Shown: positions 26,753-31,114 of the stretch, one piece after another | Position numbering within the stretch: the stretch's first letter is position 1 | How the letters are laid out: each line of letters begins with the position of its first letter | Origin: a bacterium | Lineage (GTDB): Bacteria; Zhuqueibacterota; QNDG01; DTFT01 | Assembly: GCA_016933415.1 (NCBI GenBank) | Contig: JAFGAX010000156.1 | Location: 1-36,368 of the forward strand | Direction: 5' to 3' | DNA length: 36,368 nt | The notes under the pieces: model-generated | The model's database searches: none | Seen by the model: the letters and a program-made list of their open reading frames with translations, nothing else | Told to the model about the DNA's origin: nothing | Translations under genes and position numbers: made by a program

Positions 26753-27796
26753 ATGACACGGACGCTCCGTGATTTGGCGGCTCTCTCCGGGGGGGAGCTG
26801 AGCGGGGACGGCGGTGTAATCATTACCGGACCCGCTAAAATCGAGGATGCGGGCCCGGGCCAGATCACCTTTGTCGCGAATTCCAAATACGCGCATTTTC
26901 TGGCTTCCACCAGGGCTTCAGCCGTTATTCTGCCCCGGGACATGGAAGCGCCCGGGAGCATGCCGGTTTTGCGTGCGGACAACCCCTATTTCTCGTTTCT
27001 CCTCATTGTACGGGCATTTTTCCCGGAAAAACCCTTTCTGGCCCCGGGTATTCACCCCACGGCCGTGGTCGGGGACGGCGTCCGCATGGGCGATGGCGCG
27101 GCCGTCGGACCCCGCGTGGTCATCGGAAACCGCTGCTCCGTCGGGGACGGCACCCAGTTGCTCGCGGGCGCCGTGCTCGGGGACGACGTCACCATCGGGA
27201 AAAACTGCGTCATTCACGCGAACGTGAGCCTTCGGGAAAGGGTTGTCGTGGGCGACCGCGTCATCATCCATGACGGCACCGTGGTCGGCAGCGACGGATT
27301 CGGTTTCGCGTTCGAAGGGGGCCGTTACCGGAAGATTCCCCAGGTCGGAACGGTTGTCATCGAGGATGACGTGGAAATCGGCGCGAACACGGCCATTGAC
27401 CGGGCGACGCTGGGTGAAACCCGCATCCGCGCGGGCGCCAAACTCGACAATCTGATTCAGATCGCGCACAACTGCGTGGTCGGCGAACACACGGCCATCG
27501 CCGCGCAGGCCGGGCTTTCCGGAAGCACGGTGATCGGCAGGGGCGTGCGCATCGGCGGGCAGGCCGGTTTCGCAGGGCACCTGCAGGTCGGCGACGGTGC
27601 GGCTGTCGGCGCCCAGGCGGGCGTGGACAAGTCCGTCCCCGAAGGGATCATGGTCTCCGGGGCTCCGGCCCGGCCGCACCGGGAGGAAATGCGCGCAGCG
27701 GCCGCGGTCCGGCAGCTGCCGAACTGGATGAAAGAGATCCGCAGGCACATCCGTCAGCTTCAATCGAAAGAAAAGGAATCTGAATCCACATGCTGA
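26753..27796 (+). CDS. lpxD: UDP-3-O-acyl-glucosamine N-acyltransferase
   Basis: This 347-residue enzyme adds the N-linked acyl chain in lipid A synthesis. It begins with an LpxD N-terminal domain (~1-100; GPAKIEDAGPGQITFVANSKY) and continues as a left-handed beta-helix of hexapeptide repeats. The catalytic His239 lies in DNLIQIAHNC, at the same number as in the Escherichia coli enzyme. A C-terminal helical segment (REEMRAAAAVRQLPNWMKEIRRHIRQLQ) forms the trimer tail. It starts 6 nt after skp and overlaps lpxC-fabZ by 7 nt. Confidence 0.96.
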   Translation: MTRTLRDLAALSGGELSGDGGVIITGPAKIEDAGPGQITFVANSKYAHFLASTRASAVILPRDMEAPGSMPVLRADNPYFSFLLIVRAFFPEKPFLAPGIHPTAVVGDGVRMGDGAAVGPRVVIGNRCSVGDGTQLLAGAVLGDDVTIGKNCVIHANVSLRERVVVGDRVIIHDGTVVGSDGFGFAFEGGRYRKIPQVGTVVIEDDVEIGANTAIDRATLGETRIRAGAKLDNLIQIAHNCVVGEHTAIAAQAGLSGSTVIGRGVRIGGQAGFAGHLQVGDGAAVGAQAGVDKSVPEGIMVSGAPARPHREEMRAAAAVRQLPNWMKEIRRHIRQLQSKEKESESTC

Positions 27797-29187
27797 AGAA
27801 CCAGCGCACCCTTGCCAAACCCTGTTCCCTGTCCGGCACCGGACTTCACACCGGGAACAGAACCACGGTCACGTTCAGGCCGTCCGCCGAGAATACGGGC
27901 ATCCGGTTCAGGCGCGTCGACCTGCCGGAGAAGCCCGAGATACCGGCCGACATCGATCACGTGGTCGACAATCTGAGGGACACCACCATCGGCCAGGGCG
28001 GCGTGCAGATCCGCCAGGTCGAGCACGTTCTCGCGGCAGTGTACGGGCTCGAAATCGACAACGTGGTCATCGAGCTCGATTCCAACGAACCGCCTGTCGG
28101 GGACGGAAGCGCGATGCCCTTCGTCGAGATTCTGCAGCGGGCCGGATTCGAGGAGCAGGATTCGCCGAAGGATTATCTCACCATCGAGGAGACCATCGCC
28201 TATTCCGACAAGGAGAAGGGCATCGACATGGTGGTCTTTCCATCGGACGATTTCCGCATCACGTTCATGGTCGACTACCAGAACCCGGCGCTCGGCACCC
28301 AGTACACGTCCATGTATTCCCTGACGGACGAATTCGTGAAGGAGTTCGCGTCGGCCCGGACCTTCTGCTTTCTCCACGAGGTCGAGGCGCTTCACGACAA
28401 GGGTCTGATCCAGGGCGGAAATCTGGGAAACGCCGTGGTCATCATCGACCGCAAGCTGGAAAACAACGAACTCCAGGCTCTCGCCAGGAAGTTCGGGCTG
28501 AAGGATGAAATCGTCCCCGGGTCGACCGGCATTCTGGGCGGAAAGGAACTGCGGTATCCCAACGAGCCCGTCCGGCACAAGACGCTCGACCTGATCGGGG
28601 ACCTCGCGCTGATCGGCCGGCCGCTCAAGGCCCACGTCATGGCCGCGCGGTCGGGCCATGCCGCGCATGTCGAGCTGGTCAAGCAGATCCGGAAGCTCTA
28701 CAAGAAACAGCAGATCACCCACAAGTACCAGACCCAGCCGGCCAAGAAGGGCGTTTTTCTGGACGCCCAGGCCATTCAGCGCATCCTTCCCCACCGCTAC
28801 CCGTTCCTGCTCGTCGACCGGATTGTGGACCTCATTCCGGGAGAGCGTGTGATCGGCATCAAGAACGTCTCCATGAACGAGCCGTTTTTCACCGGCCATT
28901 TCCCCTCGCATCCCATCATGCCGGGCGTGCTCATCGTGGAGGCCATGGCCCAGACGGGCGCCATCCTCATCCTCGACTCCATCGAGGAGCCGGAGAAGAA
29001 GCTCGCCTACTTCATGTCCATCGACCAGGTCAAGTTCCGAAAACCCGTCGTGCCCGGCGACCAGCTGCAGATCGAAGTGTCCCTGGTCCGCTCGCGGGCC
29101 AGTTCGTACAAGATGGCCGGCAAGGCCTATGTCTCCGGCGAACTGGTGTGCGAAGCGGAGCTCATGGCCGGCATCGTCAACCGCTGA
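27790..29187 (+). CDS. lpxC/fabZ: Bifunctional LpxC deacetylase / FabZ dehydratase fusion
   Basis: This 465-residue protein combines two enzymes. Residues ~1-300 are LpxC, the zinc deacetylase that commits to lipid A: His79 in RQVEHVLAAVYG, His263 and Asp267 in RHKTLDLIGDLALIG, and His290 in RSGHAAH. Residues ~320-465 are FabZ, 3-hydroxyacyl-ACP dehydratase: LPHRYPFLLVDRI and FFTGHFPSHPIMPGVLIVEAMAQ, with His370 and Glu384 as catalytic residues. There is no stop or frameshift between them. The linked reactions compete for the same 3-hydroxyacyl-ACP pool, so the fusion could set the balance between lipid A and fatty acids. This fusion is known in Bacteroidota, Chlorobi and related FCB groups. 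Confidence 0.97.
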   Translation: MLKNQRTLAKPCSLSGTGLHTGNRTTVTFRPSAENTGIRFRRVDLPEKPEIPADIDHVVDNLRDTTIGQGGVQIRQVEHVLAAVYGLEIDNVVIELDSNEPPVGDGSAMPFVEILQRAGFEEQDSPKDYLTIEETIAYSDKEKGIDMVVFPSDDFRITFMVDYQNPALGTQYTSMYSLTDEFVKEFASARTFCFLHEVEALHDKGLIQGGNLGNAVVIIDRKLENNELQALARKFGLKDEIVPGSTGILGGKELRYPNEPVRHKTLDLIGDLALIGRPLKAHVMAARSGHAAHVELVKQIRKLYKKQQITHKYQTQPAKKGVFLDAQAIQRILPHRYPFLLVDRIVDLIPGERVIGIKNVSMNEPFFTGHFPSHPIMPGVLIVEAMAQTGAILILDSIEEPEKKLAYFMSIDQVKFRKPVVPGDQLQIEVSLVRSRASSYKMAGKAYVSGELVCEAELMAGIVNR

Positions 29188-29209
29188 CCCACCCATTCCA
29201 GGAGGACCG

Positions 29210-29983
29210 TTGACCACGCTTCATCCCACCGCCATCGTCGATCCCGGCGCCCGGCTCGCGGACAATGTGTCCGTGGGGCCCTTTTCCATCGTGGAAAAGG
29301 ACGTGGAGATCGGCGAAGGGACCCGGATTCACGGGCACTGCTACATCGCCGACGGCGCCCGCATCGGACGCGACGTGCAGATCCACAACGGTTCCGTGGT
29401 GTCTTCCGTGCCGCAGGATCTCAAGTTCGCGGGCGAGGAAACCGTTCTCGAAATCGGCGACCGCACCGTGGTCCGGGAGTTCTGCGACCTGAACCGGGGC
29501 ACGCACGAGCGGGGGAGCAGCAGGATCGGGGAGGACTGCTTTCTCATGGCCTATGTGCACGTGGCGCATGACTGCTGGATCGGGAACAAGGTCATTCTGG
29601 CGAACGCCGTCCAGCTCGCGGGCCACGTCACCATCGAGGACCGCGTGTCGGTCGGCGGCATGTCGCCCGTGCATCAGTTCTGCAGAATCGGCCGGCACGC
29701 CTTCATCGGCGGCGGATTCCGCGTGGTGCAGGACGTGCCGCCGTACATCCTGGCCGCGGGCGAGCCCCTGACGTACAAGGGACTCAACATCGTCGGTCTC
29801 CGGAGGCGCGGTTTTTCCCAGGAATCCATCGCGGCCCTGCGCCGCTGCTACCGGTTCGTTTACCAGTCCAAGCTGAACACCAGCCAGGCGCTTGACCGCA
29901 TCCGGAACGAGATGGAGCTGACGCCTGAAGTTTCGGTCGTACTGGAATTTATCGACAAGAGCGAACGGGGCGTTATCCGTTGA
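29210..29983 (+). CDS. lpxA: UDP-N-acetylglucosamine acyltransferase
   Basis: This 257-residue enzyme performs the first step of lipid A synthesis. The beta-helix of hexapeptide repeats starts at once (HPTAIVDPGARLADNVSVGP) and contains QDLKFAGEETVLEIGDRTVVREFCDLNRGT. The catalytic histidine is His120 in HVAHDCWIGNKVILAN. The helical C-terminus includes GLNIVGLRRRGFSQESIAALRRCYRFVYQ. The TTG at 29210 is chosen because AGGAGG lies 4 nt upstream and the alignment to LpxA begins there; the upstream ATG at 29129 lies inside lpxC-fabZ without support. It is the last gene of the cluster; lpxB does not follow. Confidence 0.95.
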   Translation: MTTLHPTAIVDPGARLADNVSVGPFSIVEKDVEIGEGTRIHGHCYIADGARIGRDVQIHNGSVVSSVPQDLKFAGEETVLEIGDRTVVREFCDLNRGTHERGSSRIGEDCFLMAYVHVAHDCWIGNKVILANAVQLAGHVTIEDRVSVGGMSPVHQFCRIGRHAFIGGGFRVVQDVPPYILAAGEPLTYKGLNIVGLRRRGFSQESIAALRRCYRFVYQSKLNTSQALDRIRNEMELTPEVSVVLEFIDKSERGVIR

Positions 29984-30006
29984 AGAATCCCGCCGTCCCG
30001 TCCCGC

Positions 30007-30220
30007 TGCGCGGGATCAAGCAACAGATGCTGTTTTGATTGAAGACTGCGCGGGATCAAGCAACAGATGCTGTTTTGATTGAAGACTGCGCGGGATCAAG
30101 CTATTCTATTCACGAATTATTGAAGACAAGCGGTAGTGTATAACAGGAAACTTGGATGATGGACGCCGCCCGCTTCGCGGGATCAAGTTATTCTGTTTCC
30201 AAAGTATTGAAGACAAGCGG
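30007..30220. repeat. Family of four 40-41 nt repeats
   Basis: Two perfect 40-nt tandem copies lie at 30007-30046 and 30047-30086. A third 41-nt copy directly follows (30087-30127) with the same start (TGCGCGGGATCAAG) and end (ATTGAAGAC) but a different middle. After a 46-nt gap a fourth copy (30174-30214) matches the third at 12 of 18 middle positions, and both are followed by AAGCGG. In the identical pair the middle forms a hairpin (ATCAA-GC-AACAG-ATG-CTGTT-TTGAT). No cas gene is near and the repeats abut without spacers, so this is not a CRISPR array. Confidence 0.85.
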
Positions 30221-30240
30221 AGGGGGATTCGACTCGTGGA

Positions 30241-30307
30241 GCGGCCAGAAGCCCAATCTCCGATCATCCGGATAAATTGGGACCAGAATGAACAGGCTTC
30301 TGGCCGC
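30241..30307. repeat. Nested inverted repeat upstream of lipM
   Basis: Outer arms GCGGCCAGAAGCC (30241-30253) and GGCTTCTGGCCGC (30295-30307) are perfect 13-bp complements. Inside are CCAAT/ATTGG (30253-30257, 30276-30280) and TCCG/CGGA (30259-30262, 30269-30272). The element ends 15 nt before the lipM ATG. It lacks a U-tract, so a leader structure, a repeat relic or a protein-binding cruciform are all possible. Confidence 0.7.
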
Positions 30308-30322
30308 CCGAGTAACGCCGCC

Positions 30323-31114
30323 ATGCAGGCCTGGCGATGGATGGACGGGGGGGAGGCCGCGGGCGCGGTTCACATGGCCGTTGATTCGGTCCTGCTGGAA
30401 AACCCCTCCCGGCTGAACGTTCCCACCGTCCGGATGTACCGCTGGAAGCCCGTCTGCCTTTCCCTCGGAATCCATCAGCGGGACTGCCGTGTCGATTATC
30501 CCGCCTGCCGGCGGGACGGCGTGGATGTCGTCCGCAGGCCGACGGGCGGGCGCGCCGTTCTGCACTCGGATGAAATCACGTATGCGGTTGTCTTTCCGGT
30601 TGAAAGCGAAACGGGCGGCCTGCCGAAACAGGATCTGTATCGGAATGTCAGCGAAGCAATTGTCCGCGGCCTTTCCGGCCTGGGCCTTCCGGTGAGTTAC
30701 GAGAAGCGATCGGGCCGTCCGCCCTCCCCCCGCGATCCCTCGGCGGCCATGAGCTGTTTCAGTTCCGCGGCGCGCTGGGAAATTCTGCTCGACGGCCGCA
30801 AACTCGTGGGAAGCGCGCAGAAGATCGCGCCCGCCGGGGTGCTGCAGCACGGATCGATTCTCACGGGCGAGGGACACCGGCGGCTGGGGGATTACCTTTC
30901 CGGAGGACACGTCGCCGGGGACCCGGCGGTTTCCATCAAGGCGTTCATGGGTCGCGAGGTTCCATTTGAGGATATCGCATTCGCTGTCCGTTCCGGTTTC
31001 GAGTCCGTTTTCCGGATCCGTTTTGAAACCGCGGTTCTGACCGACGAGGAGGAGCGTCTGGCGCAAACAGCCGTTCCGGGTCACGCGCTCTCCGGAACCG
31101 GAGCCGCTGCATGA
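30323..31114 (+). CDS. lipM: LipM-like octanoyltransferase / lipoate-protein ligase family protein
   Basis: This 263-residue protein of the biotin/lipoate ligase fold is likely to move octanoyl groups from acyl-carrier protein to GcvH or other lipoyl domains. MQAWRWMDGGEAAGAVHMAVDSVLL at the N-terminus, VRRPTGGRAVLHSDEITYAV, and MSCFSSAARWEILLDGRKLVGSAQK fit LipM; Cys145 in SCF corresponds to the LipM active-site cysteine. LplA-type lipoate ligase is the alternative. The ATG at 30323 matches the family start but has no Shine-Dalgarno sequence; a further ATG at 30338 is possible. A run of seven Gs (30347-30353) near the start could allow slippage. It overlaps dxr by ATGA. Confidence 0.82.
   Translation: MQAWRWMDGGEAAGAVHMAVDSVLLENPSRLNVPTVRMYRWKPVCLSLGIHQRDCRVDYPACRRDGVDVVRRPTGGRAVLHSDEITYAVVFPVESETGGLPKQDLYRNVSEAIVRGLSGLGLPVSYEKRSGRPPSPRDPSAAMSCFSSAARWEILLDGRKLVGSAQKIAPAGVLQHGSILTGEGHRRLGDYLSGGHVAGDPAVSIKAFMGREVPFEDIAFAVRSGFESVFRIRFETAVLTDEEERLAQTAVPGHALSGTGAAA

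Follow-up and report, generated by a model that had tools for sequence, protein, structure and literature searches.

Nested hairpin repeats between lpxA and lplA as a probable non-autonomous mobile element of an order-restricted family

What are the short repeats that follow lpxA in the lipid A gene cluster of this bacterium, and how did they come to lie there? The window, i.e. the whole stretch of DNA analyzed (36,368 nucleotides), corresponds to contig C136 of a draft genome of 2.70 Mb, which consists of 227 contigs and is 76% complete. The original prediction described a family of four units of 40-41 nt with fixed ends and a variable middle at positions 29984-30220. All four units are indeed found at these places. 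The left fixed end CGCGGGATCAAG starts at 30009, 30049, 30089, and 30176 and the right fixed end ATTGAAGAC at 30038, 30078, 30119, and 30206, in all cases on the forward strand and with no other copies within the window; the numbers expected there by chance are 0.68 (one mismatch allowed) and 0.26. The four units span 30009-30214. The unit size and the limits of the feature have to be revised: the complete unit is 46 nt long, and the units are part of an inserted element that occupies positions 29980-30311 (Table 1). Folding into hairpins, also predicted, is weak for single or paired window units (RNA fold z from +0.5 to -1.5) but pronounced for the whole 332-bp element as DNA (z -3.4, with none of 100 shuffled sequences folding as well). 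No match above the gathering score was obtained in an Rfam scan of the window. Our reading is that the feature is probably a recently inserted, non-coding, non-autonomous element built of nested repeats that are transposed as single strands.

Table 1. Components of the inserted element and its borders in the window
Feature	Positions	Strand	Basis
Entire inserted element (332 bp, K-type composite) located between lpxA and lplA	29980-30311	+	Absent at the orthologous G001 junction (gap of 332)
lpxA TGA stop codon, which comes from the element's left end (TTGAAG...)	29981-29983	+	lpxA ORF 29129-29983; G001 empty site ends in TAA
First outer GC stem, 5' arm CCGCCG; partner GCGG at 30130-30133	29990-29995	+	Sequence, stem series
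Unit 1: hairpin CCCGCtgcGCGGG and short-type tail (ACAGATG); positions 15/45 = T/A	30002-30046	+	nhmmer, pattern
Unit 2: identical 40-mer, duplicated in tandem from unit 1; no first hairpin arm	30047-30086	+	100% identity, pattern
Unit 3: AT-type tail; first hairpin arm missing, hairpin interrupted by units 1-2	30087-30127	+	Pattern, nhmmer
K-type composite spacer AAGCGGTAGTG...GGATGATGGACGCCGC, includes 5' arm of second outer stem	30128-30168	+	Common to loci L015, L035, L027
Unit 4: complete 46-nt unit inside second outer stem; positions 15/45 = T/A	30169-30214	+	Pattern, nhmmer
K-type right-end hairpin; arms GCGGCCAGAAGCC at 30241-30253 and GGCTTCTGGCCGC at 30295-30307	30241-30307	+	Inverted pair 100%; conserved in other K copies
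Flank resumes, up to lplA ATG at 30323	30312-30322	+	Alignment to G001; LplA domain PF21948

The repeat is present throughout the source genome. The fixed-ends pattern with exact ends has 14 matches on 11 contigs, and a looser form (at most three mismatches) has 28, the reversed-pattern control giving none in either case. A profile search yielded 85 copies of the unit (E up to 0.5) among the loci fetched from the same genome. Aligned copies define the 46-nt unit as a CCCGC-NNN-GCGGG hairpin, A[T/C]CAAGC, a variable middle that is either AT-rich or of the ACAGATG type, and ATTGAAG[A/G]C; the part that follows the hairpin, A[T/C]CAAG...GAAG[A/G]C, is a 33-nt tail. The two types of middle, originally taken to suggest two subfamilies or gene conversion of recently duplicated units, correspond to two tail subtypes of a single unit, which has three or more such subtypes. 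Units occur in both orientations, and tandem units are present at further loci (C198, C126, and C134). The first two window units are 40-mers with 100% identity. The window 40-mers are devoid of the first hairpin arm because another unit sits within the hairpin, so that the nested order reads ...CCCG-[TCCCGCTGCGCGGG...GAAGAC]-TGCGCGGG..., and the same arrangement is observed on contig C101. The best explanation of the identical pair is local tandem duplication of a nested unit.

Units are not found by themselves but within the GC stems of composite elements, of which there are two kinds, S and K. The S composite has the structure TTGAAGCT-CCCCGCCGC-[units]-AAGCGGCGGGG-AATCTTCTATCTGTAG...CGCTTAC-CCCCGGGGC-[units]-AAGCCCCGGGG-AATGCGCTCGCTGTCAGATTCA. 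The K composite, represented by the window copy, ends in the long hairpin GCGGCCAGAAGCC...GGCTTCTGGCCGC. The outer stems hold zero, one, two, or three units. A unit-free stem, CCCCGCCGC-AA-GCGGCGGGG, is observed at locus L037 on contig C224, and hairpin tips in the source genus hold 46-48 nt, the length of one unit. The stem arms that flank a unit are still perfectly complementary, and this holds for several versions of the sequence (CCCCGCCGC, CCCCGCGGC, and CCCCGGGGC). In G011, a member of the order from another family with 390 first-look matches, the sampled elements are bare, consisting of two GC hairpins with short loops, and no units were found at up to three mismatches; this bare core is presumably the ancestral state. 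The small hairpin units appear to have been inserted inside one another, Russian-doll fashion. That units are inserted is inferred from comparing empty with filled stems of the family; the jump of a single unit by itself is not seen at any polymorphic site.

The insertion history of the elements can be followed by comparison with a congener, G001, in which we searched for the joined flanks of 36 element sites. Sixteen of these sites, including that in the window, match the congener across the join and are therefore empty there; the boundaries are clean at about eleven of these junctions and noisy at five. In the reciprocal test, the source genome is matched across the join by 6 of 12 sites from G001 (four or five clean, one or two noisy). 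At the window site, G001 reads CATCCGTTAAGGCCGCCATG and the source genome has 332 extra bases. The lplA start codon of G001 is only about 8 bases 3' of the lpxA stop. Since lplA directly adjoins lpxA in G001 as well as in eight of the nine other members of the order that were read, the window element is a gain and not a loss in G001. In the ninth (G007, contig C105, locus L111), lplA does not follow lpxA and dxr is found directly there. The view that the element interrupts the place where lpxB would follow lpxA has to be abandoned, as lplA follows lpxA across the order.

Clean junctions, read antisense with the boundary marked by ^, mostly have the form T[G/C]AA^TC...CTTCAA^flank; the window junction has TTAA, one of a few variants of this tetranucleotide. 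Each empty site carries one copy of the tetranucleotide, and no clear target duplication is seen at the readable junctions. For example, an empty site CATGCA^ATCCCG corresponds to a filled one CATGAA^TCTGTC...CTTCAA^ATCCCG (antisense). The element has no terminal inverted repeats, its left end being TTGAAGCTCCCC and the complement of its right end TGAATCTGACAGCG. Judging from these junctions, insertion without clear duplication beside a tetranucleotide would be an outcome of the IS200/IS605 type, although the tetranucleotide varies. With a simple codon model, none of the 41 element loci falls inside a predicted gene, and 26 of them lie between tandemly oriented genes. The family is dispersed, intergenic, recently inserted, and mobile.

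Two positions of the unit change together. Among 86 distinct units from two species, positions 15 and 45 form the combinations T-A (45 units), C-G (39), T-G (2), and C-A (0), and their mutual information is the highest among all column pairs compared. Fisher P values for this coupling, 1.5e-14 and 5.8e-8, ignore the relatedness of copies and are inflated, so they should not be taken literally. Both states are found in all three tail subtypes. In four tandem arrays with differing neighbor units, the pairing is within units rather than across junctions, and a pairing between position 45 and the following unit's position 15 was rejected on these grounds. The antisense layout of the unit is 5'-G[T/C]C-TTCAAT...-TG[A/G]T-hairpin, with TG[A/G]T directly 5' of the hairpin foot and complementary to a site at the opposite end of the tail. 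IS200/IS605 and TnpA-REP systems have a similar geometry, in which a guide pairs with the cleavage site, and the resemblance may be regarded as the best hint at a mechanism. The guides of IS200/IS605 elements lie 5' of the hairpin (PMC6006769), and in the Marinomonas REP system the change of GTAG to GTGG shifts TnpA-REP cleavage from CT to CC (PMC8266576). The putative guide pairing in our units comprises only 2-3 base pairs, the putative cleavage triplet of the unit would fall inside the element and not in the flank, and guide-site complementarity at the outer ends of the element is only partial. No compensatory change was observed in the 5-bp head stem among full-length units.

An extragenic palindromic family mobilized by a transposase had been suggested, and the dispersal, the intergenic location, and the empty sites in the sister species agree with this suggestion; no RAYT gene linked to these repeats was found. 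No transposase linked to the repeat family was found in a source draft of 76% completeness or in the other drafts, and no units lie beside the Y1 genes of the source genome, G001, G002, and G011 (drafts 76-96% complete). The sole Y1 transposase of the source genome is IS200-like (locus L072, C212, 82-612) and has another palindrome at its flanks. Several CCCACGGCTGAAGCCGTGGG-like palindromic repeats are observed at these flanks and also beside an element on contig C118. In G001, a RAYT gene (L242, C234, 1100-1960; NF047646, 135 bits) is flanked by its own GTAGGTCCGA-type repeats; this REP system of the sister species is separate from the family described here. G011 has a truncated Y1 gene with other repeats. 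The RAYT gene of G002 (L241, C66, 1052-2175) has 35-nt inverted ends, TGGGGTCGGACCAAGC..., which share GGACCAAGC with the units at E values of only 0.35-0.54. It was rejected as the cognate enzyme, the link being weak and its homologs retaining only the general TGGGGTCGGACC motif. Relatives of this RAYT in G051 and G064 have the motif GGGTCGGAC in common. Intervals of 1.2-1.4 kb that separate element ends in JAFGEX contigs were considered as an autonomous long copy and proved to be two separate elements around ordinary genes.

The GC-hairpin element family is restricted to the order. Among 84,980 species scanned, only two other genomes, apart from chance matches, carry the right end of the S core: JAFGEX01, a MAG from Zodletone Spring, and JAUCQC01, which is placed identically to G001. 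Three matches outside the lineage (L120, L125, and L182) are due to chance and have no hairpin context. Among the 82 genomes of the phylum, the unit is found in the source genus and once in G002. Viral contigs gave no matches to the repeat.

By its lifestyle the family is of the REP/BOX kind, although it fails the REP tag and the BOX end features. Like REP, BIME, and REPIN sequences with their RAYT (TnpA-REP), it consists of short intergenic hairpins, single or composite, that occur in tens to hundreds of copies (here 85 units at 41 loci, none in predicted genes), are inserted into one another, and have a guide-like tetranucleotide 5' of the hairpin. It differs from them in that the GTAG/CGTC tag is absent, the antisense sequence 5' of the hairpin being TG[A/G]T in the unit and GATT or CATT in the core hairpins. 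No linked RAYT was found in drafts of 76-96% completeness. Other differences from REP are the 46-nt unit with its 33-nt tail, the systematic multi-level nesting in stem tips, and covariation of the guide/site pair inside a single genome. Some REPs do sit inside other palindromes, as GTAG-23 of T. roseum and GTAG-15 of A. variabilis (PMC3733652), and REPINs inserted into REPINs have been reported in a study that also names the small dispersed repeats (SDR) of cyanobacteria (PMC3116915). The boxA-boxB(n)-boxC elements of Streptococcus are similar in that the outer parts persist and an internal module of about 45 nt is present in variable number (here 0 to 3), and in being mobile and intergenic (PMC3049150). 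BOX, however, has terminal inverted repeats and target duplications. Our family has no inverted ends and no clear duplication; its outer parts are GC stems, and the module is also found reversed and in a second composite type. Non-autonomous derivatives of IS200/IS605 resemble our family by sub-terminal hairpins, guides (here putative) directly 5' of hairpins (PMC6006769), and insertion 3' of a tetranucleotide (here T[G/C]AA^ antisense at most readable junctions, with a few variants) without target duplication. The elements described here differ from these derivatives in being only about 50-330 bp long, in the partial guide-site complementarity of their outer ends, and in that no autonomous partner with such ends was found. 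The SDR of cyanobacteria are very short mobile repeats located inside other repeats. They are unrelated to our family in sequence and host, and we know of no guide-type covariation described for them. Unusual features of the family are its regular nesting in two tiers, a relative with the bare core, and a guide-like site that covaries naturally.

How could such elements move? A Y1/HUH transposase of the IS200/IS605 or TnpA-REP-like kind may act in trans and move a single strand. The enzyme would bind the hairpin, and the antisense TG[A/G]T guide 5' of it would pair with G[T/C]C at the tail's distal end and thereby select the cleavage site. Nesting would follow if the exposed hairpin tips of existing copies are favored targets. 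A bolder version of this scenario, which we put forward only tentatively, is a two-tier system where the GC-hairpin elements spread and the 46-nt unit transposes specifically into the single-stranded tips of this first tier and of itself, its internal guide having co-evolved with the cleavage site into A/T and G/C forms in one genome. A less likely alternative is that only the outer elements are mobile and the units multiply locally by slippage, palindrome template switching, or gene conversion, the nesting being a by-product of hairpin-prone replication. The identical 40-mers in the window and the tandem units on C198, C126, and C134 do look like slippage, and no polymorphic single-unit insertion was seen. 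Local duplication, on the other hand, does not explain why the same unit is found in stems unrelated to each other, in either orientation, in both kinds of composite, and in a single case in another family of the order, and the stem arms outside the unit stay exactly complementary. An origin similar to that proposed for BOX and RUP, i.e. a MITE-like element moved by the DDE transposase of a resident IS, with the hairpins incidental, would account for a small, non-coding, dispersed, intergenic element with inserted sites and for its modularity, as the number of internal units also varies in BOX (PMC3049150). We consider it rather improbable, given that the ends do not form terminal inverted repeats, the readable junctions show no clear target duplication, the element is GC-rich and not AT-rich, and the coupling of positions 15 and 45 is not predicted.

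The same coupling, as a covariation of paired bases, could also be ascribed to a functional structured RNA or regulatory element, with the 15/45 pair closing an RNA structure and the copies serving as 3'-UTR stabilizers or attenuators. Many copies are located directly 3' of tandemly oriented genes (26 of 41 loci), which, like the good folding of the whole element as DNA, would fit such a role. The covarying helix, however, would have only 2-3 bp, bounded by mismatches, no compensatory change is seen in the head stem of 5 bp, no intrinsic terminator was found on the gene strand, nothing matches Rfam, and the copies adjoin unrelated genes and are absent at orthologous sites; we therefore give this explanation little credence. 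A degenerate CRISPR-like array, or the stripped-down spacer array of the original prediction, is suggested by the tandem fixed ends with variable middles. It has practically no probability and is contradicted by copies dispersed on many contigs, nested, and present in both orientations, and by middles that are a few related subtypes and not unrelated spacers; no cas gene is present among the gene families read around the feature. Transposition of a single strand, as outlined above, is the reading that we retain, and for the host the element is most likely a selfish one that is tolerated between genes.

Most of what is known about how guides recognize cleavage sites in the transposition of single strands comes from a small number of crystal structures and of mutants studied in vitro. 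In the present family, some 90 natural copies include guide and site in two matched forms, which makes the rule directly testable. The family offers bare, filled, and multiply filled hairpins together with reciprocal empty sites in two sister species, and thus bears on the spread and nesting of REP-like elements. It also accounts for a 332-bp structured insert in a lipid A operon of the source genus. The element replaces the lpxA stop codon and parts lpxA from lplA, so that translational coupling may have been lost in the source genome (30128-30322 region). The surrounding cluster comprises lpxD, lpxC-fabZ, lpxA, lplA, and dxr, and its lpxC-fabZ gene (27790-29187) encodes a fused LpxC-FabZ protein of 465 aa.
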